Assembly: GCA_028817275.1 (NCBI GenBank) | Contig: JAPPPZ010000123.1 | Coordinates: 1 to 36,673 of the forward strand | Direction of reading: 5' to 3' | DNA length: 36,673 bases | Source: Gammaproteobacteria bacterium | Lineage (GTDB): Bacteria; Pseudomonadota; Gammaproteobacteria; Arenicellales; Spongiicolonaceae | In this document: positions 14,778 through 27,093 of the stretch, in pieces | Layout: the number at the start of each line of letters is the position of its first letter | Numbering within the stretch: the stretch's first letter is position 1 | Position numbers and translations under genes: made by a program | Notes under the pieces: model-generated | Database searches by the model: none | Told to the model about the DNA's origin: nothing | Seen by the model: the letters and a program-made list of their open reading frames with translations, nothing else

Positions 14778-15344
14778 ATGACATGCGCAGTGCAATTTCT
14801 TGCGCGGGCCGCCGTTGTCCTGCTGCTGTTTTCCGCGCCGGCGGCGTGGGGGCAAATCGGCGACGACTGCACCGAGGTGGAAATCCATTATGAGGACGAC
14901 GCCACGTTGACCAAAGCGGAAAAACTGGCGCTGATGGAGCAGGCTTTTCAGGAATCGCTGAGCCGCTACTCGCACTGCCAGAATTCTTCCGGCGGCGGCG
15001 CGCAATCCGGCGCATCCGCATCCATTGCCGGCACCGAGGGTGAGGGCGAGGGTGAAGGCGAGGGCGGCGGCGGCGGCGAGGCGGCGGCCTCAGCCTCCGT
15101 TTCCGGAACCGAAGCCGCCGCCGAACAAAAAGAACCCGCGCAAACCGCCGCCGCGCAGCAGCCGGGCGGTGACTCCGGCGGCAAACTCCCGGAAGATATT
15201 CCGCCGGCCGACAACGACAGCATTGTGGAAGCGCAAATTCGCGCCGCCGCCATGGCCGAGCCGGACCCTGAAACCAAGGCCGCTCTGTGGAACGAGTACC
15301 GCAAATACAAAGGCCTGCCGACCGTTGACGAGGAATCCCAATGA
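14778..15344 (+). CDS. Secreted acidic low-complexity protein (operon gene 1)
   Basis: A 188-aa protein with a clear signal peptide: a hydrophobic stretch AAVVLLLFSAPAAWG, with cleavage probably before Q. The mature part opens with a short conserved-looking domain including DDCTEVEIHYEDDATLTKAE and two Cys that could pair (DDC and SHC). A middle linker of Gly-Glu and Ala-Ser repeats contains the near-duplicates ASASIAGTE and ASASVSGTE. The C-terminal domain is LPEDIPPADNDSIVEAQIR to LWNEYRKYKGLP. I know no function. The start at 14778 follows the promoter by 6 nt; a longer frame from 14718 would begin inside sfsA. The stop overlaps the next ATG (ATGA). Probably periplasmic and a partner of the other envelope proteins of this operon. 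Confidence 0.85.
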   Translation: MTCAVQFLARAAVVLLLFSAPAAWGQIGDDCTEVEIHYEDDATLTKAEKLALMEQAFQESLSRYSHCQNSSGGGAQSGASASIAGTEGEGEGEGEGGGGGEAAASASVSGTEAAAEQKEPAQTAAAQQPGGDSGGKLPEDIPPADNDSIVEAQIRAAAMAEPDPETKAALWNEYRKYKGLPTVDEESQ

Positions 15345-16582
15345 ACAGCAAAACCCTCTGCGCGCTTTTTGCCGCGTTCACTCTTCTGGCCGGTTGCGCC
15401 ACCGGCGACGGCGTGGTCAAAGTCGGGCCGGGCCAGAGCGGCGGCAAAGTGGCCAAAGTGGGGCCCGGCGCCGCCACCGCCGGCGGCGCATCCCAAACGC
15501 CGCCGGCCGTTTATGCCGGCACCCGGCTGGATGTGATTGTGCCGGTGTTTGACCCGGGCCTGCCGGCCGATTCGGACCAATACGAAAAGAAAGGCATCTG
15601 GCCCGAGTTGCGCCGCGCCGAGTCCAACAAATTCGCGCTCAACATGAAACATGCGCTGGAGGACACCGCGACTTTCGGCGCGGTGCGGGTGGCCCCGGAT
15701 GCATCCGCCAGCGGTGATTTGTACGTGCTCGGCAAAATCCTGAAATCCAACGGTGAAGACGTGCAGTTCAGCCTGCAGGTGGTGGACATTTCCGGCCGCC
15801 AGTGGATGAATAAAATCTACCGCCACCGGGTCAAGGAACGGTTCCACAAAGACCTGCGCAACAAGGGCAAAGACGCCTACCAGCCGATCTTTACGCGCGC
15901 CGCGGAAGACGTTGCAAAGTTGCTGCGCCGCAAAAAAGACGCCCAGTTGGCCGAGTTGCGCGCCGTCACCGAGATGCGCTTTGCCCAATCTTTTGCGGCG
16001 GACGCATTCGCCGGCTATTTGCGCCAAAGCGGCGGCGTCACCAAACTCAGCGGCCTGCCGGACGAGAATGACCCCATGCTGAACCGCACCCGCGGCATCC
16101 GGGTGCGCGACAGTCTTTTTATCGACAACATGCAAACCCATTACGAAAATTTCGACCGCAAGATGAGCGAAAGTTACGCCGTGTGGCAGGCCGCGGCGCT
16201 CACCGAGGCCAAAGCCGCGCGCAAGGCGAAGAAAAAATCCATCGTGCAAGGCATCGCCGGCGCCGCCGCCCTCATCGGCGGCATTGCGGCCGCGGCCAGC
16301 ACCGACAACCCCGCTGCGGCCGATGTGGCGGCGGTGACCGGCACCATTGCCGGCGGCGCGCTGCTGGGGGCCAGTTTTCACAACAGCGCGCAGGCCAAAG
16401 TGCACCGCGAGGCGCTGGCCGAACTCGGCGAATCTCTTGACATTCAACTGGCGCCGCAGGTGGTGGAGTTTGAGGGCCGCACCGAAAAACTCACCGGCGA
16501 CGCGGCCGAGCAGTTTGCCCAGTGGCGCGCTTTTTTGCAGCGCATCTACGAACAGGAAGCGACGCCCGAAACGCAACTGTAA
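15341..16582 (+). CDS. Outer-membrane-type lipoprotein of unknown function (operon gene 2)
   Basis: A 413-aa protein with a lipobox LLAGC, Cys 19 being the lipidated residue. The residue after Cys is Ala, not Asp, which favours sorting to the outer membrane. After a Gly/Ala linker the globular region holds RLDVIVPVFDPGLP, an alpha/beta stretch VAPDASASGDLYVLGKIL, and SLQVVDISGRQWMNKIYRHR, which reads like a penicillin-binding-protein-activator-type or TolB-N-like strand pattern. Near residue 310 a hydrophobic Ala/Gly run ([16 protein letters not shown]) suggests membrane contact or a glycine-zipper-like hairpin. Family not recognised. It is coupled to the previous gene by a 4-nt overlap and followed 5 nt later by gene 3. 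Confidence 0.85.
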   Translation: MNSKTLCALFAAFTLLAGCATGDGVVKVGPGQSGGKVAKVGPGAATAGGASQTPPAVYAGTRLDVIVPVFDPGLPADSDQYEKKGIWPELRRAESNKFALNMKHALEDTATFGAVRVAPDASASGDLYVLGKILKSNGEDVQFSLQVVDISGRQWMNKIYRHRVKERFHKDLRNKGKDAYQPIFTRAAEDVAKLLRRKKDAQLAELRAVTEMRFAQSFAADAFAGYLRQSGGVTKLSGLPDENDPMLNRTRGIRVRDSLFIDNMQTHYENFDRKMSESYAVWQAAALTEAKAARKAKKKSIVQGIAGAAALIGGIAAAASTDNPAAADVAAVTGTIAGGALLGASFHNSAQAKVHREALAELGESLDIQLAPQVVEFEGRTEKLTGDAAEQFAQWRAFLQRIYEQEATPETQL

Positions 16583-16587
16583 CAACC

Positions 16588-18051
16588 ATGGGCAACAGCC
16601 TCGGAGAAAAAATCTCCCGCGCCCGGGAGAGCGATGCGCGGCGCAAAAAGGGGTTGCGGCGGATGGCGCTGGCGGCGGCCGGCGCTTGCGCGGTGGTTTT
16701 CGGCGGCGGGGCGGCGGCGTATTTTTATGTTTGGCCATGGCTCGGCGGCGCGCCGGCGGTGACGCCGGCGGTGACAGTGGACCGCGCGCCGCAGGCCCCG
16801 GCGGCAACCAACCCGGCCGATAACCCGCTGCGTGAACAATATAAATCGCAACTGAAAATTTTCCACAGCGAAACCGAACCGGCGCTGGCGGCGGTGTCGG
16901 CATCGGTTTGGGCGGCGGATGCGCATGAATTAATTTTTGACGGCAAAGAAAAATCATTGCGCGCTTTTGACGCCGGCAACTATTCCTCCGCCCTCGGACT
17001 GCTGCAAAACGCGCAAACAACGGCCGGCGGGATTTTGCGGCAGGCCGAGGAAAGATTTCGCGTGAACATCAAAGCCGCCGCTGACGCTTTTGATGCAAAC
17101 GACCATCAAACCGCCGCCGCCGCCGTCACCACCGCGCTGTTGCTGAAACCGCAGCATGCGGCGGCGCGGGAGTTGCGCGGGCGCATTGATGTTTTGCCGC
17201 GGGTGCTGGAACTGCTGCAAACCGCCGCACAGGCGCGCGCTGAAAACCGGCCGCGCGCCGAACAAAAAGCGCTGGCGGAAGTTGTGCAACTGGACCCGGC
17301 GCGCAATGCGGCGCGGCAACGTTTGCAAACCGTCACCAGCGCCATTGCCGAGCGCGCATTCACCGAAAACATCACCGCCGGATTCGGCGCGCTGGAAAAA
17401 CGCGACCTGGCATCCGCGCTGCGCCACTGGAATGCCGCGAAGAAAGTTTTTCCCGGCCGCGAGGAAGCGGCGGTATTGGGCCGCGAAATTAATGATTTGG
17501 ACCGCGCCCTCACCCTGCAAAAACACCTGCGCGCCGGCGCGCGGGCCGCGGCGGAGGATGACTGGGACGGCGCGCTGCGGGCCTTTCAACAGGCGGGAAA
17601 AATTGACGCGGTCCACGCCGAAGCGGTGGCCGGGGAAAAACGCGCCCGGGCGATCCTAAGCGCGCGCAAAAACATGAATTCCCACATCGCGCGGCCGCAG
17701 CGGCTGTTTTCGCCGAATGTTGCGGCGGCGGCGGAAAAAATTCTGCACGACGCCCGCAAGTTGTACCCGTTCAGCCCGTCGCTGGCGCGGCGCGGGGAAA
17801 AGTTAACCGGGCTTCTGGCCGCGGCCAGGCGGCCGGCGACGGTGACCGTCCACTCCGACAACCAAACCGACATTCGCGTGCGCGGCGTCGGCGTCATCGG
17901 CAAAACCGAACGGCGCACGTTGGAATTGCGCCCCGGCGTGTACACTTTTGAAGGCCGGCGGCGCGGCTACCGCTCCAAGTTGGTGACGCTGACGGTGCGT
18001 CATGACCGCGCGCCGCTGGCCGTGACCGTGGTTTGCGATGAGCAAATTTAA
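16588..18051 (+). CDS. Membrane-anchored repeat protein with a PEGA-like C terminus (operon gene 3)
   Basis: A 487-aa protein with a short basic cytoplasmic tail, one TM helix at about residues 25-49 (LAAAGACAVVFGGGAAAYFY) and a large periplasmic part. From about 75 to 410 it is alpha-helical with Ala-rich TPR-like units, for example NYSSALGLLQNAQ, DHQTAAAAVTTALLLKPQHAAARELRGRI and DWDGALRAFQQAGKID. The final 75 residues are beta-rich, VTVHSDNQTDIRVRG to RPGVYTFEGRRRGYRS, a PEGA-like unit. TPR and PEGA modules usually bind proteins or glycans at the envelope. The start is the ATG 5 nt after the lipoprotein gene. Its end overlaps gene 4 by 14 nt. Confidence 0.83.
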   Translation: MGNSLGEKISRARESDARRKKGLRRMALAAAGACAVVFGGGAAAYFYVWPWLGGAPAVTPAVTVDRAPQAPAATNPADNPLREQYKSQLKIFHSETEPALAAVSASVWAADAHELIFDGKEKSLRAFDAGNYSSALGLLQNAQTTAGGILRQAEERFRVNIKAAADAFDANDHQTAAAAVTTALLLKPQHAAARELRGRIDVLPRVLELLQTAAQARAENRPRAEQKALAEVVQLDPARNAARQRLQTVTSAIAERAFTENITAGFGALEKRDLASALRHWNAAKKVFPGREEAAVLGREINDLDRALTLQKHLRAGARAAAEDDWDGALRAFQQAGKIDAVHAEAVAGEKRARAILSARKNMNSHIARPQRLFSPNVAAAAEKILHDARKLYPFSPSLARRGEKLTGLLAAARRPATVTVHSDNQTDIRVRGVGVIGKTERRTLELRPGVYTFEGRRRGYRSKLVTLTVRHDRAPLAVTVVCDEQI

Positions 18052-20053
18052 CCGGGAACTGGCCCGGGCGCGCGCCCGCTCCCGCCGCACCGGCGCCGCG
18101 GTCGCGCTCGCCGTTGCCGTGGTCGCCGTTGCGGCCGCCGCGTTTTTTGTTTACACGCGCGGCATTGCAGTCAGCGTTTCGCCGGCCGCCGCGGCGGCTT
18201 CGGCGGTGGTGGGCATCGCGCGGGGTGTGGGCTTCGCCGTCGGCGGCAAGGTGTACTCGGCCGGCGACGTGACCATCACCGTCGCCGCCCCGGGTTTCAT
18301 CACCGAGACCGTCGACGTCGCCGCCGGGCGGCGCGGGAATTTGGTCGAGGTGGTAATGCGCGAGGCGCCGTCCATGCTTCTGCTGGCGGCCAGCCCGGCG
18401 CTGCCGGAAACCCGGTGGTTTGTGGACGGCGCGCTGGTCGCAAGCGGCGCCGGCGCCACCGCCGAGGTCAAACCCGGCATGCGCCGGGTGCGCGCCGACC
18501 ACCCGCACCATGAAGTGGCCACGTTCACCGTCAACATCAAGCGCGGCGAAGAAGTGAGTCGCACGGTAAACCTCGCCCGGCTCAGCGGCCGGCTGCATGT
18601 CACCACCGTTCCGCCTGGTGCAACCGTCACCATGGACGGCGCGACCGCCGGCACCGCCCCGCTGGCCATCGACGTGGGCGGCGGAAGCCACGCCCTCACC
18701 GTCACCCTCGCCGGCCGCAAGACCGTGCGCGACACCGTCACCGTCACCAACGCCGCCCCGGCCGTCACCCGCAACTACAACCTGCCGCCGCTGGACGCCA
18801 CGGTGCGCTTTGCGCTCAGCCCGGCCGGCGGCACGTTGCTGGTGAACGGCCGGCGCATCCGCAACACCGATGCCGTGACCGTCACCGCCGGCCGTGAACA
18901 CACTGCGGCCTACGCCAAGCCCGGCCATGGCCGGCAGGTGCGGAAGTTCACCGCCGCCGCCGGCGCATCCAACGTGGTGCGCATGACGTTGCGCGCCGAG
19001 ACCGGCGAGGTGAAAGTGACGTCCACCCCGCCGGCGACGGTGACCGTTGACGGCACAGTCGCCGGCGCCACGCCGCTGGATTTGCGCCTCAGCACGGCGC
19101 CGCACACCATCACCCTCAGCAAGCCAAACTACCGCAGCGTCACCCGCACGGTGACGCCGTCCACCGGCGGCGTCAAACGGGTGGACGCGGTACTGAAAAC
19201 GGAAATGCAGGCGCGGCTTGAGGAAAGCCCGGCGCTGTACAAAAACCATGCGGGAATGACGATGAAACTGTTTGCCAGGCCGGGCGCCGTCAACATGGGC
19301 GCGCCGCGCCATGAAAAAGGCCGCCGCGCCAATGAGTTTGAACGCGCGGTGCGGCTGGCCCGGCCTTTTTATGTCGCGCTGCACGAAACCACCGTGGCGC
19401 AGTTCGGTTTGTTCCAAAGCGGGAAAGCCGGCCCGCCCACCGCGCCGGTGACCAATGTTGCGTGGGCCGATGCGGCGGCGTTTTGCAACTGGCTCAGCGC
19501 GCGGGAGGGGCTGCAGCCGTTTTATGCGCGGCGCAACGGCGGGTGGGTGAAGGCCGGCGGCGGGAGTGACGGCTACCGCCTGCCGAGCGAGGCCGAGTGG
19601 GAGTATCTTGCGCGCAAGGCCGGGCGGCCGCAGCAGACGCGCTTCACCTGGGGCGACCAAGCGCAGGTGCCGCCGCGCGCCGGCAACTTTGCGGACGAGT
19701 CGGCCAAGGGCAAAACCGCGTCTTATATTCCGCGCTACACCGACGGTTTTGCCGGCCTGGCGCCGGTGGGAAGTTTCCCGGCCGACCGCGCCGGGCTGTT
19801 CGACCTCAGCGGCAATGCCAGCGAGTGGGTGCACGACGTGTATTCGTTGACTCCGCCGCGCGGCGGTGCTATTGAAGTGGACCCCATGGGCGCCGCGCAC
19901 GGCGGCGCGCATGTGTTCAAGGGCTCCAACTGGCGCTCGGCAAGTTTGACCGAACTGCGGGCGTCGTTTCGTGAAACATCGGCCGGCGGCCGCGACGATT
20001 TGGGCTTCCGGGTGGCACGGTATTTGTACGGCGGCAACCATGCAGCGCAATAA
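18038..20053 (+). CDS. PEGA-repeat protein with a C-terminal FGE/SUMF1-fold domain (operon gene 4)
   Basis: A 671-aa envelope protein: basic tail, one TM helix (about residues 18-40), then four to five PEGA-like beta units, clearest at RLHVTTVPPGATVTMDG, VRFALSPAGGTLLVNG and VKVTSTPPATVTVDG. From about residue 405 there is a formylglycine-generating-enzyme-like domain: MKLFARPGAVNMGAPRHEKG, FYVALHETTVAQF, YRLPSEAEWEYLAR, GLFDLSGNASEWVHDV and GSNWRSASLTELRASFRE. The paired Cys used by true FGE for sulfatase activation are absent: the C-terminal motif ends GFRVAR where active bacterial enzymes have a Cys, and the only Cys is in AFCNWL. It is therefore more likely a binding module than an enzyme. 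It overlaps genes 3 and 5 by 14 nt each. Confidence 0.9.
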   Translation: MSKFNRELARARARSRRTGAAVALAVAVVAVAAAAFFVYTRGIAVSVSPAAAAASAVVGIARGVGFAVGGKVYSAGDVTITVAAPGFITETVDVAAGRRGNLVEVVMREAPSMLLLAASPALPETRWFVDGALVASGAGATAEVKPGMRRVRADHPHHEVATFTVNIKRGEEVSRTVNLARLSGRLHVTTVPPGATVTMDGATAGTAPLAIDVGGGSHALTVTLAGRKTVRDTVTVTNAAPAVTRNYNLPPLDATVRFALSPAGGTLLVNGRRIRNTDAVTVTAGREHTAAYAKPGHGRQVRKFTAAAGASNVVRMTLRAETGEVKVTSTPPATVTVDGTVAGATPLDLRLSTAPHTITLSKPNYRSVTRTVTPSTGGVKRVDAVLKTEMQARLEESPALYKNHAGMTMKLFARPGAVNMGAPRHEKGRRANEFERAVRLARPFYVALHETTVAQFGLFQSGKAGPPTAPVTNVAWADAAAFCNWLSAREGLQPFYARRNGGWVKAGGGSDGYRLPSEAEWEYLARKAGRPQQTRFTWGDQAQVPPRAGNFADESAKGKTASYIPRYTDGFAGLAPVGSFPADRAGLFDLSGNASEWVHDVYSLTPPRGGAIEVDPMGAAHGGAHVFKGSNWRSASLTELRASFRETSAGGRDDLGFRVARYLYGGNHAAQ

Positions 20054-20213
20054 AAATTCAAACCGCGCGGCGGCGGCGGTCGCGGCGGCGGCTGCGGCGG
20101 TTGCATTGGCGGTGCTCGGCGTCCTGGCAACTGTGGCCGATGACAGCGCGGCGCAAAATTCACCGCCTGAGCTCAGCCTCAACTCCGCGGCAACTTTCCC
20201 GGTGGACATCTGA
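20040..20213 (+). CDS. Small 57-aa membrane or secreted protein (operon gene 5)
   Basis: A short reading frame starts at the ATG at 20040, 14 nt inside the end of gene 4, and ends TGATG on the start codon of the channel gene. It encodes a basic N terminus (MQRNKNSNR), a long Ala/Val hydrophobic segment ending in VLGVLATVA, and a polar tail ending in a hydrophobic ATFPVDI. This is the layout of a signal anchor or cleavable signal. The overlap lengths copy those of its neighbours, which supports translation, but the Ala-rich composition could partly be a product of high GC. No homologue recognised. If real it is a small accessory subunit of the channel complex. Confidence 0.6.
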   Translation: MQRNKNSNRAAAAVAAAAAAVALAVLGVLATVADDSAAQNSPPELSLNSAATFPVDI

Positions 20214-20977
20214 TGAACATCGGCGGCCGTGAACTGTGGACCAACATCGCGGTGCTGCTGGCGGCGGCGGTTGCGGTGCATCTTTTGTACCTCGGCGTGG
20301 TCATTCCGCGCGCCGAGTTTGCAATAGAAGCGGCGCGCCAGGCCGGGCAATCGGCGCCGCGCGACCTGTTCGTCATTTTCAAAGACATGGAGCAGGAAAT
20401 TTGCGTGATTTTAATGCTCTATGGCGCGTATTTAATGCTGCGCAAACACGGCAAACTGCGCTCCACCCGGTATTTGTTCACGGTGGACCTGCTGGACAGC
20501 GCCGGGGCCGGCAAGGAGTCGCTGGCAAAGGCCCTGCAAGAGTTGGAGCAGTTGGATAAAAAATACCGTGAAACGCCGCTGGTGGAAACATTGGCCGCGA
20601 GTTTGCGCCGCTACCGCGCCACCGGCGACGTGCAAAACACCTCCGACGCCATCCGCGCCAGCGTGGAGGCGCTGGGCGTGCGCATGGAGGCGGAGAATTC
20701 CACCATTCGCTATTTAATCTGGGCCATTCCGTCGGTGGGATTCATCGGCACCGTGCGCGGCATCGGCCAGGCCCTGTCGCGGGCCGAAGAGGCGCTGGCC
20801 GGGGACATTGCCGGCATGACCGAAAGTCTGGGCATTGCGTTTAACTCCACTTTGGTGGCGCTGCTCATCAGCATTGTGCTCATGTTTCTGCTGCACCAAC
20901 TGCAGCGCGAGCAGGATGGCGTGCTGGTGGAAACGCAGTCGTACTGCGAGAAATTTCTCCTCAAGCGGATTAGTTAG
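20213..20977 (+). CDS. MotA/TolQ/ExbB-family proton channel subunit (operon gene 6)
   Basis: A 254-aa inner-membrane protein. TM1 is about residues 10-30 (IAVLLAAAVAVHLLYLGVV), TM2 about 60-78 (ICVILMLYGAYLML), followed by a cytoplasmic helical domain with several charged residues. TM3 (IWAIPSVGFIGTVRGIGQAL) carries the GxxGTVxGI family signature, and TM4 is LGIAFNSTLVALLISIVLMFLL. Four TMs with a medium loop resemble MotA/ZorA more than three-TM ExbB. Family members form pentamers around a dimeric partner and use the proton gradient to drive movement. The partners are expected to be the two VWA proteins directly downstream. Stop TAG is 3 nt before the next start. Confidence 0.9.
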   Translation: MNIGGRELWTNIAVLLAAAVAVHLLYLGVVIPRAEFAIEAARQAGQSAPRDLFVIFKDMEQEICVILMLYGAYLMLRKHGKLRSTRYLFTVDLLDSAGAGKESLAKALQELEQLDKKYRETPLVETLAASLRRYRATGDVQNTSDAIRASVEALGVRMEAENSTIRYLIWAIPSVGFIGTVRGIGQALSRAEEALAGDIAGMTESLGIAFNSTLVALLISIVLMFLLHQLQREQDGVLVETQSYCEKFLLKRIS

Positions 20978-20980
20978 CAC

Positions 20981-22012
20981 TTGTCCGCGCGCCGCAAAGC
21001 CGAGGGGTTCAACCTGGCCTTTCTGGACATCATGGCCTGCGGGCTGGGCGCGGTGATTTTGCTGTTTCTCATCGTCAAGCACAATTTTGACCGCGGCTCG
21101 GTGGAAGCCGACGTGACACTGGGCGAAATGGAAACGCTGGAACAACAGAAAGAACAACTGCAAAAAGAAGTGGCGGACATCCGCCGGCGCAACTCCGCCG
21201 AACAAAAACGCGGCGGGGAGTTGCGGCAAAAACTTCTGGCCGCGCAACAAGCGGCCGCGGCGCTCGACGAAAAAACCGCGCGGCAGAAAAAAGAAAACGA
21301 AAAACTCAAAAGCGATATGGAGGAAATCCAACGGCAGCAGGCGGCCGATGTGGTGGCCGACCCGGCGGCGGGCGAGGAGTCCTACCTTATCGGGCTGAAA
21401 ATGGAAGGGCCAAGAATTGCCATCCTCCTCGACCACAGCGCGTCCATGACCGACGAAAAACTTCTGGACATCATCGCGCGCAAGATTCGCAGCGACGCGC
21501 ACAAACAAAGCGGGCCAAAATGGCGGCGCGCAACAAAAACAGCGCGCTGGATGCTGAACCGTCTGCCGGACAAAAGCACGGTGTCGCTCATCGCCTTCAA
21601 CCGCAGCGCAAAAATCCTCGGCGGCGCGGCCTGGCACGACGGCAAAAACGCCGCCGACATCACCGCGCTGTTCAAGGCGATTGGCGAACTGGTGCCGAGC
21701 GGCGCCACCAACCTGCAGGCCGGGCTCCGGCAGTTGCAAAAATTGCGCCCGCCCGCGACCGACATCTACCTGATTACCGACGGCCTGCCCACCGCGGGCG
21801 AGGGTGATGGCTGCCGCAGCGGCCTCACCGTCGGCGGCCGCTGCCGGGGGAAAATCTTTGAAAAAACGACGCGCAAATCCACCCCGCCCGGCGCAAAAAT
21901 CAACGTGGTCCTGCTGCCGCTGGAAGGTGATCCGCAGGCCGCGCCGTACTACTGGCGCTGGGCATCGGGCAGCCGCGGCCTGATGATTGCGCCGGCCGGG
22001 AACTGGCCATGA
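20981..22012 (+). CDS. VWA protein with a stator-like TM helix, paralogue 1 (operon gene 7)
   Basis: A 343-aa protein: basic cytoplasmic tail, one TM helix at about 12-32 with the motif FLDIMACGLGAVILLFLIVK, a periplasmic coiled coil (about 45-125, Glu/Gln/Lys-rich heptads), and a von Willebrand A domain. The MIDAS metal site is D151-x-S153-x-S155, followed by SGATNL and LITDGLPT. D16 sits where MotB, ExbD and TolR carry their proton-accepting Asp. No peptidoglycan-binding OmpA domain is present. The start must be TTG at 20981: it lies 3 nt after the previous stop and the next Met (M18) would remove D16. No good Shine-Dalgarno sequence is visible. It ends ATGA with gene 8. Confidence 0.88.
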   Translation: MSARRKAEGFNLAFLDIMACGLGAVILLFLIVKHNFDRGSVEADVTLGEMETLEQQKEQLQKEVADIRRRNSAEQKRGGELRQKLLAAQQAAAALDEKTARQKKENEKLKSDMEEIQRQQAADVVADPAAGEESYLIGLKMEGPRIAILLDHSASMTDEKLLDIIARKIRSDAHKQSGPKWRRATKTARWMLNRLPDKSTVSLIAFNRSAKILGGAAWHDGKNAADITALFKAIGELVPSGATNLQAGLRQLQKLRPPATDIYLITDGLPTAGEGDGCRSGLTVGGRCRGKIFEKTTRKSTPPGAKINVVLLPLEGDPQAAPYYWRWASGSRGLMIAPAGNWP

Positions 22013-22950
22013 AACGCCGCGCCCGGGGCGGGGATATTTTCAGCCTGTCGTTTCTGGACGTGGTGTCCTGCGGCTTCGGCGCCGTGGTGCTGCTGTTGTT
22101 GATAAGCAAAAGCGGCTTCACCGAGTCGGATACAAACCGCGACATCAGCACGCTGCTGGCGCGCACATTTCAGGTGGAGGACGAGATTCAACAGTTGTCC
22201 GGCCGGCGCGAGCAATTAAAAACGGAACTCGCCGCGCGCCAAAGCAAAAACCAGGAAGCGCTGGCGGCCGCAACCGCCGCCGCGGCGCAACTTAACAAAA
22301 AGCAGGCTGAGTCGGCCAGCCTGCAAAAAGAATCCAGCGGCCTGCAAAACACCAGGGAAATTCTGCAGCGCGCATCAATTACGCCGGCCACCGCCGAAAC
22401 CCGCGACGAAGAAGTGGGCGGCATCCCGGTGGACAGCGACTACGTGATCTTTATCGTGGACACCTCGGGCAGCATGCAGGACATCTGGCCGCGGGTGCTG
22501 CGCGAGATGGAAAATGTTCTGGACATTCACCCGGCGGTCAAAGGCTTCCAAATCATGAACGACAACGGCGCCCACCTCATCCGCTCCTACCGGGGGAAAT
22601 GGATTCCGGACACGCCGCGCCGCCGCAAAAGCGTGCTGGGCGCCATGCGCAACTGGGGGGGGTTGTCCAACAGCAGCCCGGTGGAAGGACTGGAAGTGGC
22701 GCTCAAAACTTACGCCAGGCCCGGCGAAAAAGTTTCCGTTTATATTTTCGGCGACGACTACACCGGCTCTTCATATGACGCGGTGATTCAAACTTTGGCA
22801 AAGCTGAACACCGACAAAATCAGCCGCAAACCGCTGGCCAAAGTCCACGCCATCGGTTTTCTTTCCGGCCACGGCGGCGGGCGTTTTGAAATTTTAATGC
22901 GCGAAGTCACCCGCCGCCACGGCGGCACTTTTGTCGCCCTGCCGCAATAA
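22009..22950 (+). CDS. VWA protein with a stator-like TM helix, paralogue 2 (operon gene 8)
   Basis: A 313-aa protein with the same plan as gene 7: basic tail, TM helix FLDVVSCGFGAVVLLLLISK with D17, coiled coil (about 40-120), and a VWA domain with MIDAS D151-T-S153-G-S155 (DTSGSM). Later come SNSSPVEGL and YIFGDDYTG. The MIDAS Asp falls at residue 151 in both proteins, and the TM motif is almost identical, so they are paralogues by duplication. The sequence from the MIDAS onward differs clearly, so they are not redundant copies. A mixed dimer inside the channel pentamer is the natural hypothesis. Start ATG 22009 overlaps the previous stop. It is the last gene of the operon. Confidence 0.9.
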   Translation: MKRRARGGDIFSLSFLDVVSCGFGAVVLLLLISKSGFTESDTNRDISTLLARTFQVEDEIQQLSGRREQLKTELAARQSKNQEALAAATAAAAQLNKKQAESASLQKESSGLQNTREILQRASITPATAETRDEEVGGIPVDSDYVIFIVDTSGSMQDIWPRVLREMENVLDIHPAVKGFQIMNDNGAHLIRSYRGKWIPDTPRRRKSVLGAMRNWGGLSNSSPVEGLEVALKTYARPGEKVSVYIFGDDYTGSSYDAVIQTLAKLNTDKISRKPLAKVHAIGFLSGHGGGRFEILMREVTRRHGGTFVALPQ

Positions 22951-24183: not shown

Positions 24184-27093
24184 ATGAACAAAGGACATAA
24201 GACTGTGGAAACGACTCTCAATACTTGCCTGGCTGAACTGTTGCGCGGACATGGCTTGGATGCGGAACCTGAGCGGAGTTTAACTGAGCCGCGCCGCGCC
24301 CAACTTGATGTGGTGGTGAGCCGGGACACGGACTGCGTCGTGATTGAATGTGAATTTGCGCCGGCCCGGACGGTGCGCGATGACGCCGCAAGCCGCCTGA
24401 CCCGCCCGCCGCTTGCCTACCAGAAACTTTCGGTGCGCAGTGTTTTTGCCCTGGTGTATCCGGAACGTTTCCGCGATATCGAGCGCAGCGATGACCTGAG
24501 GCGTGAATTAATCCGCGCAGATGACCTTAAATTTGCCATTGGCCACCGCGGCCTCGAAGTGGACGCGCATTGGGAGGAGCGGGACATGGTTTGGCAGGAG
24601 GAAACCACCGGCGGGGTGTCCGACTTGGCGGATGCGCTTCTGAATTGGTGGAGCCAGTCCGACCCCGGGGCGGCGTCCATTGAAAAAATCGTCACTGCCC
24701 TGGGCCGCGCGGTTTCGCTGGCGGCGGACAAGATTGAACAGGCGCAAAACAACCCGCTGGCCGAGAACACCGCCCCGGAGGACGAAGCCGCCAGCGTGTC
24801 CGCGCTGGTGTGGGCCAATGCGATGATTTTTCAGGAGTTGCTCGCGAGCAACCTGCGCGGCCACAACATCCCGCGGCCGGTTTCTTCACCGGCCAAATTG
24901 GCCGTGCAGTGGGAGGAAATACTCAAGATAAACTGGTGGCCCATCTTCCACACCGCGCGCCTCGCGCTCAGCAACACGCCGGCGCCACAAAACCGGGAGG
25001 CCATTGAACTGCTTCTGCCGGCGGTGCAAGAGGTGGTGGAATCCGGCATCGCCACCAGCCACGACATCGCCGGGCGGGTTTTTCACCGCCTGCTGGACTC
25101 GCGCAAATTTCTCGCCACAAATTACACCACCATTTCCGCGGCGGTGTTGCTGGCCGCGCTGGCGTTTGACCCGGAGCGCTGGAAGCACGTGGACTGGGCC
25201 GACCCGCAGGCAGTCGGCAAACTGAAAATTTTCGACCCGGCCTGCGGCACCGGGACTCTGTTACTGGCGTCCATGCAGGAAGTGCTGCGCCGGCACCGCC
25301 GCGCCGGCGGTGATCCGGCGGCGGTGACCAAAGACCTGCTGGAAAAAGTCATCCACGGCTACGATGTGGTGCCGGCCGCAGTCCACTTGACCGCCGCAAC
25401 TTTGGCCATGAGCGAAACCGGGCAAGTGGTCAAGGAGATGCCGCTTTATGTCATGCCCCACGATGTGGCGCCCGACCGCGACAACAAAAAAGTCGTTGTC
25501 CCGCGGCTTGGCAGTCTGGATTTCCTGCATGGCTCAAAGGCGGCCGTAAAAACCATGTTCAGCGGCGAGGGTGACGCCGGGCGGCGCACCGGCAGCGGGG
25601 AATTGGTTCACGACGTTGACCTGCCAAACAACCCCGACTTAATCATCCAAAATCCCCCCTACACCCGCGCCGGCGGCCCCGGGGATGCAAAAAACACCGA
25701 CTGGAATCCGTTGTTCGGCTCGCTGCTTTCCAAAAGCGACGTGGAAAAGATGCAGAAAGAACTGCGCGACCGCCTCACGGGGACGCCGGCCAGTTTATAC
25801 GCCGGGCTCGGCTCCGCCTTTGCCTGCCTTGCCGATGAAAGAATTGCCCGGGAGCGGCGCGTTGCGTTTGTGCTTCCCGCCACCGTTCTCAGCGGCAGCC
25901 GCTGGGCCGCCATCCGCCGCATGTTTCTGCAGAAATACGAAATTGACTGGGTGGTGGTCAGCCACGACGGCCGCCACCGTTCCCACAAAAAAGGATTCCC
26001 CGGCCGCCGGTATGTCGGTTTTTCCGAATCCACCCGCATTGCGGAAACTTTAATTCTCGCCACCAAAGTGCAAACAATCGATTCCGGGCATCAAGTTCGC
26101 TTTGTTAACTTGCGCCACAATCCCGACCATCCTTTTGAGGCGGCGGCCGTTGGCCGGCACCTGCTGGAAAAGCCAAACGCCGATGAAATTTCCACCGGGC
26201 AGAAAGTGTGGGGGGAAATTGTGCGCGTTCCTCAGGCCGACATCCCCAAGGGCGCGCCGTGGTCGGCGACGGCTTTTATGCAGACCAGAATTTATGACGC
26301 CGCGTGTGCGCTGCTTGACGGTGAATTGCATCTCGGCGTCGACACGGTTATTCGTGTTCCTGTTGCGCCGTTGGGGGGCATTGCCGCAATCGGCCCCTAT
26401 CACATGCAGATTAAAAACCCCAAATACGGCGCTTTTAAGATTGTTGAAACCGGCAACGCAACACGACTCGGTGAGCCGGCGCTTTGGCACCACAAATCTG
26501 AGGAAATCCGCACCCTCACGCCCAAGGCCAATGCGCGCTTGCAAGTCCGCGCCGGCCGCCGAAACCGCGCGAAAGAAATGCTGCGGCGGGCCGGGCATTT
26601 GCAACTCGCAAGTGTACTTGGCCATGCGCCGCAACGGTTTGCCGCGGTGCGCACCGGGGAAGACATGCTCGGCGTGAGTTCCTGGATTACGCTGTTGATT
26701 AAACATGACGGCGAAGAAAACCTCCTTGCGGCCATGGAAAAAACCCTGGCGCTGTGGCTGAACAGTACGCCGGGTTTAATTTTGCGGATTTTCCATGCCA
26801 ACCGCCCTTATCTTGGGCGCAGCGGGATGCCCCACGAACTGGCGCGGACTTTTCCGGTGCTGGATGTGGCAAAACTGCCTGCGGAAAAACTCGCCGCCGG
26901 CGCGGCGCTGTTTGATGAACTGGCCGGCCGGGAATTCCAGGGATTTGCCCGGATGGACACCGATGAAAACCGCCGCAAATTGAACGAGGGGCTCCTCACC
27001 GACGTCCTCGGCGCGCCGGCGGCGGCCAAAACCGCAATGCGAAAACTCACCGCCCAACTCAAAGCCGAGCCGACCATCACCGCCCGCCACTGA
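24184..27093 (+). CDS. Single-polypeptide restriction-modification enzyme (Type IIG-like)
   Basis: A 969-aa protein combining nuclease, methyltransferase and probable target recognition. Residues 1-110 form a PD-(D/E)XK-like domain: D42 in QLDVVV, then IECEFAPA with E55 and E57, where the usual ExK is ExE. The middle is an N6-adenine methyltransferase with motif I DPACGTGT (D351) and motif IV NPPY (490-493), the order of Eco57I-type enzymes. The C-terminal third has no clear motif and is the likely target-recognition region. In Type IIG enzymes one chain both methylates and cuts one site. No separate specificity or nuclease gene is present. Composition is somewhat less GC-rich than the flanks. 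Strong Shine-Dalgarno sequence and own promoter; convergent with gmk. It is flanked on the left by a truncated rdgB. Confidence 0.85.
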   Translation: MNKGHKTVETTLNTCLAELLRGHGLDAEPERSLTEPRRAQLDVVVSRDTDCVVIECEFAPARTVRDDAASRLTRPPLAYQKLSVRSVFALVYPERFRDIERSDDLRRELIRADDLKFAIGHRGLEVDAHWEERDMVWQEETTGGVSDLADALLNWWSQSDPGAASIEKIVTALGRAVSLAADKIEQAQNNPLAENTAPEDEAASVSALVWANAMIFQELLASNLRGHNIPRPVSSPAKLAVQWEEILKINWWPIFHTARLALSNTPAPQNREAIELLLPAVQEVVESGIATSHDIAGRVFHRLLDSRKFLATNYTTISAAVLLAALAFDPERWKHVDWADPQAVGKLKIFDPACGTGTLLLASMQEVLRRHRRAGGDPAAVTKDLLEKVIHGYDVVPAAVHLTAATLAMSETGQVVKEMPLYVMPHDVAPDRDNKKVVVPRLGSLDFLHGSKAAVKTMFSGEGDAGRRTGSGELVHDVDLPNNPDLIIQNPPYTRAGGPGDAKNTDWNPLFGSLLSKSDVEKMQKELRDRLTGTPASLYAGLGSAFACLADERIARERRVAFVLPATVLSGSRWAAIRRMFLQKYEIDWVVVSHDGRHRSHKKGFPGRRYVGFSESTRIAETLILATKVQTIDSGHQVRFVNLRHNPDHPFEAAAVGRHLLEKPNADEISTGQKVWGEIVRVPQADIPKGAPWSATAFMQTRIYDAACALLDGELHLGVDTVIRVPVAPLGGIAAIGPYHMQIKNPKYGAFKIVETGNATRLGEPALWHHKSEEIRTLTPKANARLQVRAGRRNRAKEMLRRAGHLQLASVLGHAPQRFAAVRTGEDMLGVSSWITLLIKHDGEENLLAAMEKTLALWLNSTPGLILRIFHANRPYLGRSGMPHELARTFPVLDVAKLPAEKLAAGAALFDELAGREFQGFARMDTDENRRKLNEGLLTDVLGAPAAAKTAMRKLTAQLKAEPTITARH

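Follow-up and report, generated by a model that had tools for sequence, protein, structure and literature searches.

An eight-gene envelope operon linking a MotA/TolQ/ExbB-family channel to two VWA proteins: a candidate trans-envelope motor

Organization of the gene block

We describe a conserved block of eight genes that may encode a previously undescribed proton- or ion-driven trans-envelope motor, with its likely work at the outer membrane or cell surface. We think the chance that this reading is right is a little better than even. The block occupies positions 14778-22950 on the + strand of the window, by which we mean the whole 36,673-nucleotide stretch of DNA analyzed here. Its eight open reading frames (ORFs) are co-directional, and every junction is an overlap or a gap of at most 5 nt except for two 14-nt overlaps. 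Successive ORFs overlap by 4, 14, 14, 1, and 4 nt, and the gaps are 5 and 3 nt. The first-pass annotation had described eight co-oriented and tightly packed genes, all of which were found. It also had them led by one promoter, a claim left unsupported by a consensus scan for sigma-70-type sites, which found no sigma-70-like promoter upstream of g1. The genes and their main features are as follows.

14778-15344, + strand: g1, exported protein with an N-terminal signal segment, a low-complexity linker, and a conserved C-terminal helix motif (ORF, alignment, hydrophobic segment)
15341-16582, + strand: g2, lipoprotein with a TolB-N/PelC-like domain and a long helical hairpin (ORF, structure model, fold search)
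16588-18051, + strand: g3, N-terminal membrane anchor, TPR repeats, and a conserved C-terminal beta region
18038-20053, + strand: g4, N-terminal membrane anchor, PEGA repeats, and an FGE-fold domain
19274-20020, + strand: FGE-like domain of g4, no Cys at the FGE active-site positions
20040-20213, + strand: g5, 57-aa peptide, exported or membrane-tethered
20196-20210, + strand: FPVDI motif of the g5 C-terminus, immediately 5' of the stop codon
20213-20977, + strand: g6, MotA/TolQ/ExbB-family channel, Thr180 and Thr213 invariant
20981-22012, + strand: g7 (VWA1), cytoplasmic tip, one transmembrane (TM) helix, coiled-coil-like stretch, VWA head
21026-21028, + strand: TM Asp16 of VWA1 (FLDIMACGLGA), in 99/99 aligned loci
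21431-21445, + strand: MIDAS DxSxS of VWA1; Thr243 and Asp267 are located elsewhere in the protein
22009-22950, + strand: g8 (VWA2), paralog of g7, TM helix 13-33, helix 42-122, VWA head 145-311
22057-22059, + strand: TM Asp17 of VWA2 (FLDVVSCGFGA), in 99/100 loci
22459-22473, + strand: MIDAS DxSxS of VWA2, with Ser222 and Asp249

Domain searches returned no significant match for g1, g2, or g5, and found no TolA, TonB, Pal, TolR, or ExbD-type gene inside the block. Downstream of it (window 24184-27093) is a 969-aa ORF with a weak N6 DNA methylase match only.

Conservation and distribution

The eight genes form a conserved unit, beyond what chance would produce. Gene order is collinear on one strand in 89 of the 91 complete loci (those holding all seven large genes; about ten of them duplicate a genome present in both collections), a figure that is conditional on g6 because the loci were picked by their similarity to it. 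These loci come from Alphaproteobacteria, Gammaproteobacteria, and Desulfobacterota, and g1 heads the block in nearly all of them. The two exceptions are rearranged with the block genes still adjacent: in L099 (7726-16959) g4-g5-g6 are convergent to g1-g2-g3-g7-g8, and in L107 (2871-11241) g4-g8 are convergent to g1-g3. The co-occurrence proposed earlier as the check on the block was thus found. Each of the domains is common by itself, which could suggest a set of envelope genes with no relation beyond shared transcription, but order and membership are kept across classes, even after rearrangement. This synteny refutes the idea, which we consider exceedingly improbable.

A search with g6 of genomes from the same order found relatives in 53 of 109, and their loci show the same eight-gene order. 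When named genomes were scanned with g6, the best 80 among 584 or more relatives were in Alphaproteobacteria (Magnetovibrio, Sneathiella, Kordiimonas, Aestuariispira), Gammaproteobacteria (Methylophaga, Glaciecola, Pseudoalteromonas, Rheinheimera, Salinimonas), and Desulfobacterota (Desulfogranum and others). Separate searches that used VWA2 as the query detected this protein in 30 of 364 good gammaproteobacterial genomes (23 of 273 genera), in most cases with VWA1 adjoining, and in 12 of 391 genomes phylum-wide. One complete copy (L111) is in a bin titled Acidimicrobiaceae, where the contig is probably mis-binned.

Pairwise distances of the genes correlate at 0.79-0.91 across 80 loci and the window, as expected of one evolving unit. 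The concatenated tree reveals three subtypes, each of which mixes classes, so that operons were probably transferred whole. Pseudomonadales-like loci and those of one Arenicellales family (f2) have an additional gene of about 430 codons between g6 and g7 (for example L058:9969-11279 and L137:10747-12096). In one of the four members tested, the C-terminus of its product gave an FHA match that is weak and under the Pfam cut-off. The same two groups usually have two more lipoprotein genes after g8, and some have a TPR gene before g1. In the Pseudomonadales-like subtype two lipoprotein families without a Pfam match lie directly 3' of g8 (L067:15332-16063; L052:16052-16744). No constant partner gene outside the block was found across the subtypes; the flanking partners are subtype-specific only.

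The channel subunit

By its profile match (E=5e-13; 49.3 bits, above the curated cut-off of 22.9), g6 is a genuine PF01618 MotA/TolQ/ExbB protein. Trp170, Pro173, Gly176, Gly179, Thr180, Arg182, and Gly183 show no variation in 106 sequences, and neither do Asn211, Ser212, and Thr213 in the 105 that have letters at those positions. The last two TM helices contain the conserved polar residues Thr180 (106/106) and Thr213 (105/105), which we take to be equivalent to ExbB Thr148 and Thr181. Hydropathy indicates only two strong TM segments, with two further ones suggested by eye, and profile matches to MotA and TolQ in the PDB are weak (E=0.4-0.6). Channels of this family are pentamers around a dimer of B subunits and convert ion flow into movement (PMC9389320).

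Zorya phage defence likewise pairs a MotA-family channel, ZorA, with a dedicated partner, ZorB, and g6 has a weak ZorA match in PADLOC (E=0.0013). A Zorya-like motor is nevertheless very improbable here, since the OmpA-like ZorB and the cytosolic effectors are absent (no ZorB, ZorC, ZorD, ZorE, nuclease, or helicase) and the block is collinear across three large groups with ordinary flanking genes. A defence island was also rejected, PADLOC having given weak single matches only.

Another MotA/ExbB paralog occurs elsewhere in a row with genes for FHA, PP2C phosphatase, and Ser/Thr kinase proteins (L068:1075-4543; L069:1917-5846), possibly a phospho-regulated channel system.

The VWA proteins as candidate B subunits

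Both partners of the channel have the same layout: a short basic stretch, a single N-terminal TM helix, a helical stretch, and a VWA head. The head of g7 matches Pfam VWA_2 (E=1e-8). That of g8 is weak in Pfam, and its model matches solved VWA structures, the best at E=5e-7. The VWA2 model (mean pLDDT 85.7) has a TM helix at residues 13-33, a helix of about 80 residues at 42-122, and the VWA head; we infer that this helix, about 12 nm long, could span much of the periplasm. The TM segments of VWA1 and VWA2 align with each other at 99.5% probability, and on this evidence the two are paralogs. Alignments indicate an intact MIDAS metal site in both: in VWA1, D151 is found in 97/98 sequences, S153 in 98/98, S155 in 97/98, T or S at T243 in 98/98, and D267 in 98/98; in VWA2, D151, S153, and S155 are found in 100/100 and D249 in 96/96 where aligned.

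The TM helices share the consensus F-L-D-[VI]-x-x-C-G-x-G-A, whose Asp is present in 99/99 VWA1 and 99/100 VWA2 sequences. Its position is where the proton-binding Asp lies in ExbD, TolR, and MotB (for MotB, PMC9389320). With a near-invariant Asp at the start of the TM helix in both, VWA1 and VWA2 can be read as the B subunits themselves, an argument from the position and conservation of one residue. Curated family searches gave no ExbD or MotB_plug match to either protein. When the helix was compared with ExbD and MotB profiles, Asp fell on Asp in all four comparisons at probabilities of 0.8-3.3%, which are not significant, and the scores against ExbD fall within those of shuffled controls; homology by profile is therefore not established. 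The argument is strengthened by the host genome (92.9% complete), in which no MotB match was found and the sole ExbD-family protein is TolR, adjoining TolQ and TolA. The earlier proposal of VWA partners in place of MotB, ExbD, TolR, or ZorB is borne out by these searches.

At L070:9557-11194 the gene after a MotA paralog encodes a protein whose TM module, also with an Asp, is very similar (FSMSALDLFACALGAFILI) and in which Pfam recognizes no VWA head. This protein suggests that the axle module may be portable.

The envelope proteins

The C-terminus of g1 has the conserved motif DNDxxxxxQIRxAAxxExDPxxKxxLWxEYRKYKGLP. The lipobox of g2 is LLAGC, with Cys19 followed by Ala. The g2 model (mean pLDDT 81.6) places a domain at residues ~60-240 and, after it, a long helical hairpin whose tip is rich in Gly and Ala. 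Among the best fold matches of the domain are PelC and TolB (probability 1.0, E about 1e-3, overall TM-score low); g2 has no Pfam family, and a sequence search of the PDB with it gave nothing. The membrane-anchored g3 has TPR repeats and a conserved C-terminal beta region, SDNxTxIxVRGVG. The first-pass annotation had placed PEGA in g3, and none of 34 members has a Pfam PEGA match; the TPR repeats are there instead. The PEGA/FGE anchor that it proposed is g4, which has an N-terminal membrane anchor and matches both Pfam families (FGE-sulfatase, E=3e-36; PEGA, E=6e-27). Its FGE domain matches structures of FGE, PorK/GldK, and PvdO. No cysteine occurs in the catalytic segment in 20 homologs, which rules out a catalytic FGE, and the domain is probably structural.

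The small peptide g5 ends in [FL]-P-x-[DN]-[IM] directly at the stop codon in 108 of 113 loci. After its hydrophobic core a median of 25.5 aa follows (minimum 14; 98 non-duplicate loci). The codons of the tail and its distance to g6 vary between loci, so that conservation acts on the g5 protein; an effect of the g6 start at the DNA level is ruled out for FPVDI by the same variation. The conserved FPxDI tail is a previously unreported feature. A free, constrained C-terminus suggests a docking tail, which might conceivably engage the MIDAS site of a VWA head.

These features could also belong to a sensor or a gated channel, in which the VWA heads and the FPVDI peptide would report the state of the envelope, open or shut ion flow through g6, and signal inward. 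VWA/MIDAS domains are ligand-binding folds, the conserved free end of g5 resembles a ligand, the additional gene of one subtype has the sub-cut-off FHA match, and related MotA paralogs sit with FHA, PP2C, and kinase genes. The core eight, however, have no gene for a cytoplasmic output, and a long stalk with envelope-spanning partners suits the transfer of force equally well or better. We consider a sensor unlikely.

A proposed motor mechanism

In the motor that we favor, g6 would form the channel ring, and g7 and g8 would be its B subunits, probably as a VWA1/VWA2 heterodimer whose paired TM helices carry the ion-binding Asp. Ion flow would turn or stroke the g6 ring against the VWA1/VWA2 axle, and the long helical stalk would transmit this movement to a pair of periplasmic VWA heads. 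With their MIDAS metal sites the heads may bind an acidic ligand on partner proteins, the candidates being g3 (the TPR protein anchored in the inner membrane), the PEGA/FGE protein g4, and the free C-terminus of g5. The lipoprotein g2 would pass force to the outer membrane. The FGE fold of g4, as in PorK/GldK, and the TolB/PelC-like domain of g2 make these downstream parts resemble known receivers of force. We infer stoichiometry, ion coupling, the MIDAS ligand, the direction of force, and the cargo, in distinction to the genes, their conserved linkage, the folds, and the conserved residues, which are observed. Of the reading in the first-pass annotation, support extends to a conserved envelope system around a MotA/TolQ/ExbB channel with two VWA partners; the single promoter and the PEGA domain of g3 were not confirmed.

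Comparison with known systems

No operon of the same composition is described in the literature searched, most subscription journals and preprints lying outside its scope, and the earlier statement that no characterized system matches holds within those limits. The parts belong to known families, and by analogy the core resembles known 5:2 motors. Among possible functions the likeliest is mechanical work on the outer membrane or the cell surface, like that of the Tol, Gld/T9SS, or Agl motors.

GldLM/PorLM with GldK/PorK, of gliding and the T9SS in Bacteroidota, is a 5:2 motor driven by the PMF, with a long stalk in the periplasm and an FGE-fold component, to which the FGE fold of g4 is the likeness. 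The channel here, however, is a PF01618 protein, the stalk heads are VWA domains, and the block lacks GldN, SprA, SprE, GldL, and GldM. Moreover, g4 scores 63.6 against the NCBIfam GldK cut-off of 350 bits and is anchored by a TM segment, not by lipid. GldK is reported in a 2025 study (PMC12635249) to belong to the track that moves during gliding. The AglR-AglQ-AglS gliding motor of Myxococcus likewise has one channel gene and two paralogous B-subunit genes (PMC3169522), a precedent for one A subunit with two B paralogs (PMC3169522, PMC9389320). AglQ and AglS are ExbD/TolR-domain proteins, whereas the B-like proteins here have VWA heads and no ExbD match.

A narrower form of the motor reading names the cargo: the motor would assemble or move a surface polymer or adhesin, as in polysaccharide export, gliding, or surface translocation. 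It can draw on the resemblance of the g2 domain to TolB and to PelC, a lipoprotein of the Pel polysaccharide system, on the PorK/GldK match of g4, and on the Agl-like arrangement of one A and two B subunits (PMC3169522). However, the block has no constant link to any gene for a glycosyltransferase, adhesin, beta-barrel, or translocon, and we regard this form as possible but doubtful.

The TolQ-TolR-TolA-TolB-Pal system has its channel family in common with the block, and the g2 domain is TolB-N-like by fold. A second Tol-Pal or Ton-like system for envelope stabilization is still quite unlikely: the block has no TolR, TolA, TonB, Pal, or ExbD-type gene, and the host has TolQ, TolR, and TolA encoded elsewhere.

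Significance

Few ion-driven envelope motors are known, and a major function depends on each of them: swimming, gliding, uptake of nutrients, integrity of the envelope, secretion of proteins, and phage defence. We suggest, tentatively and with well under even confidence, that the block represents a further major class, separate from Mot, Ton/Tol, Gld, and Agl, with a VWA heterodimer as its axle and metal-dependent heads that grip and release FPxDI-COOH or an envelope partner, thereby converting the energy of the gradient into outer-membrane work. If this is true, VWA domains would serve a membrane motor as couplers that bear force. The pair of conserved aspartates, together with the FPxDI tail, opens the motor reading to direct test. 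About 8% of the gammaproteobacterial genomes sampled carry the system, which also occurs in Alphaproteobacteria and Desulfobacterota, and its hosts are mostly marine. If it is a further motor, a significant share of the envelope mechanics of these hosts would so far be unstudied.
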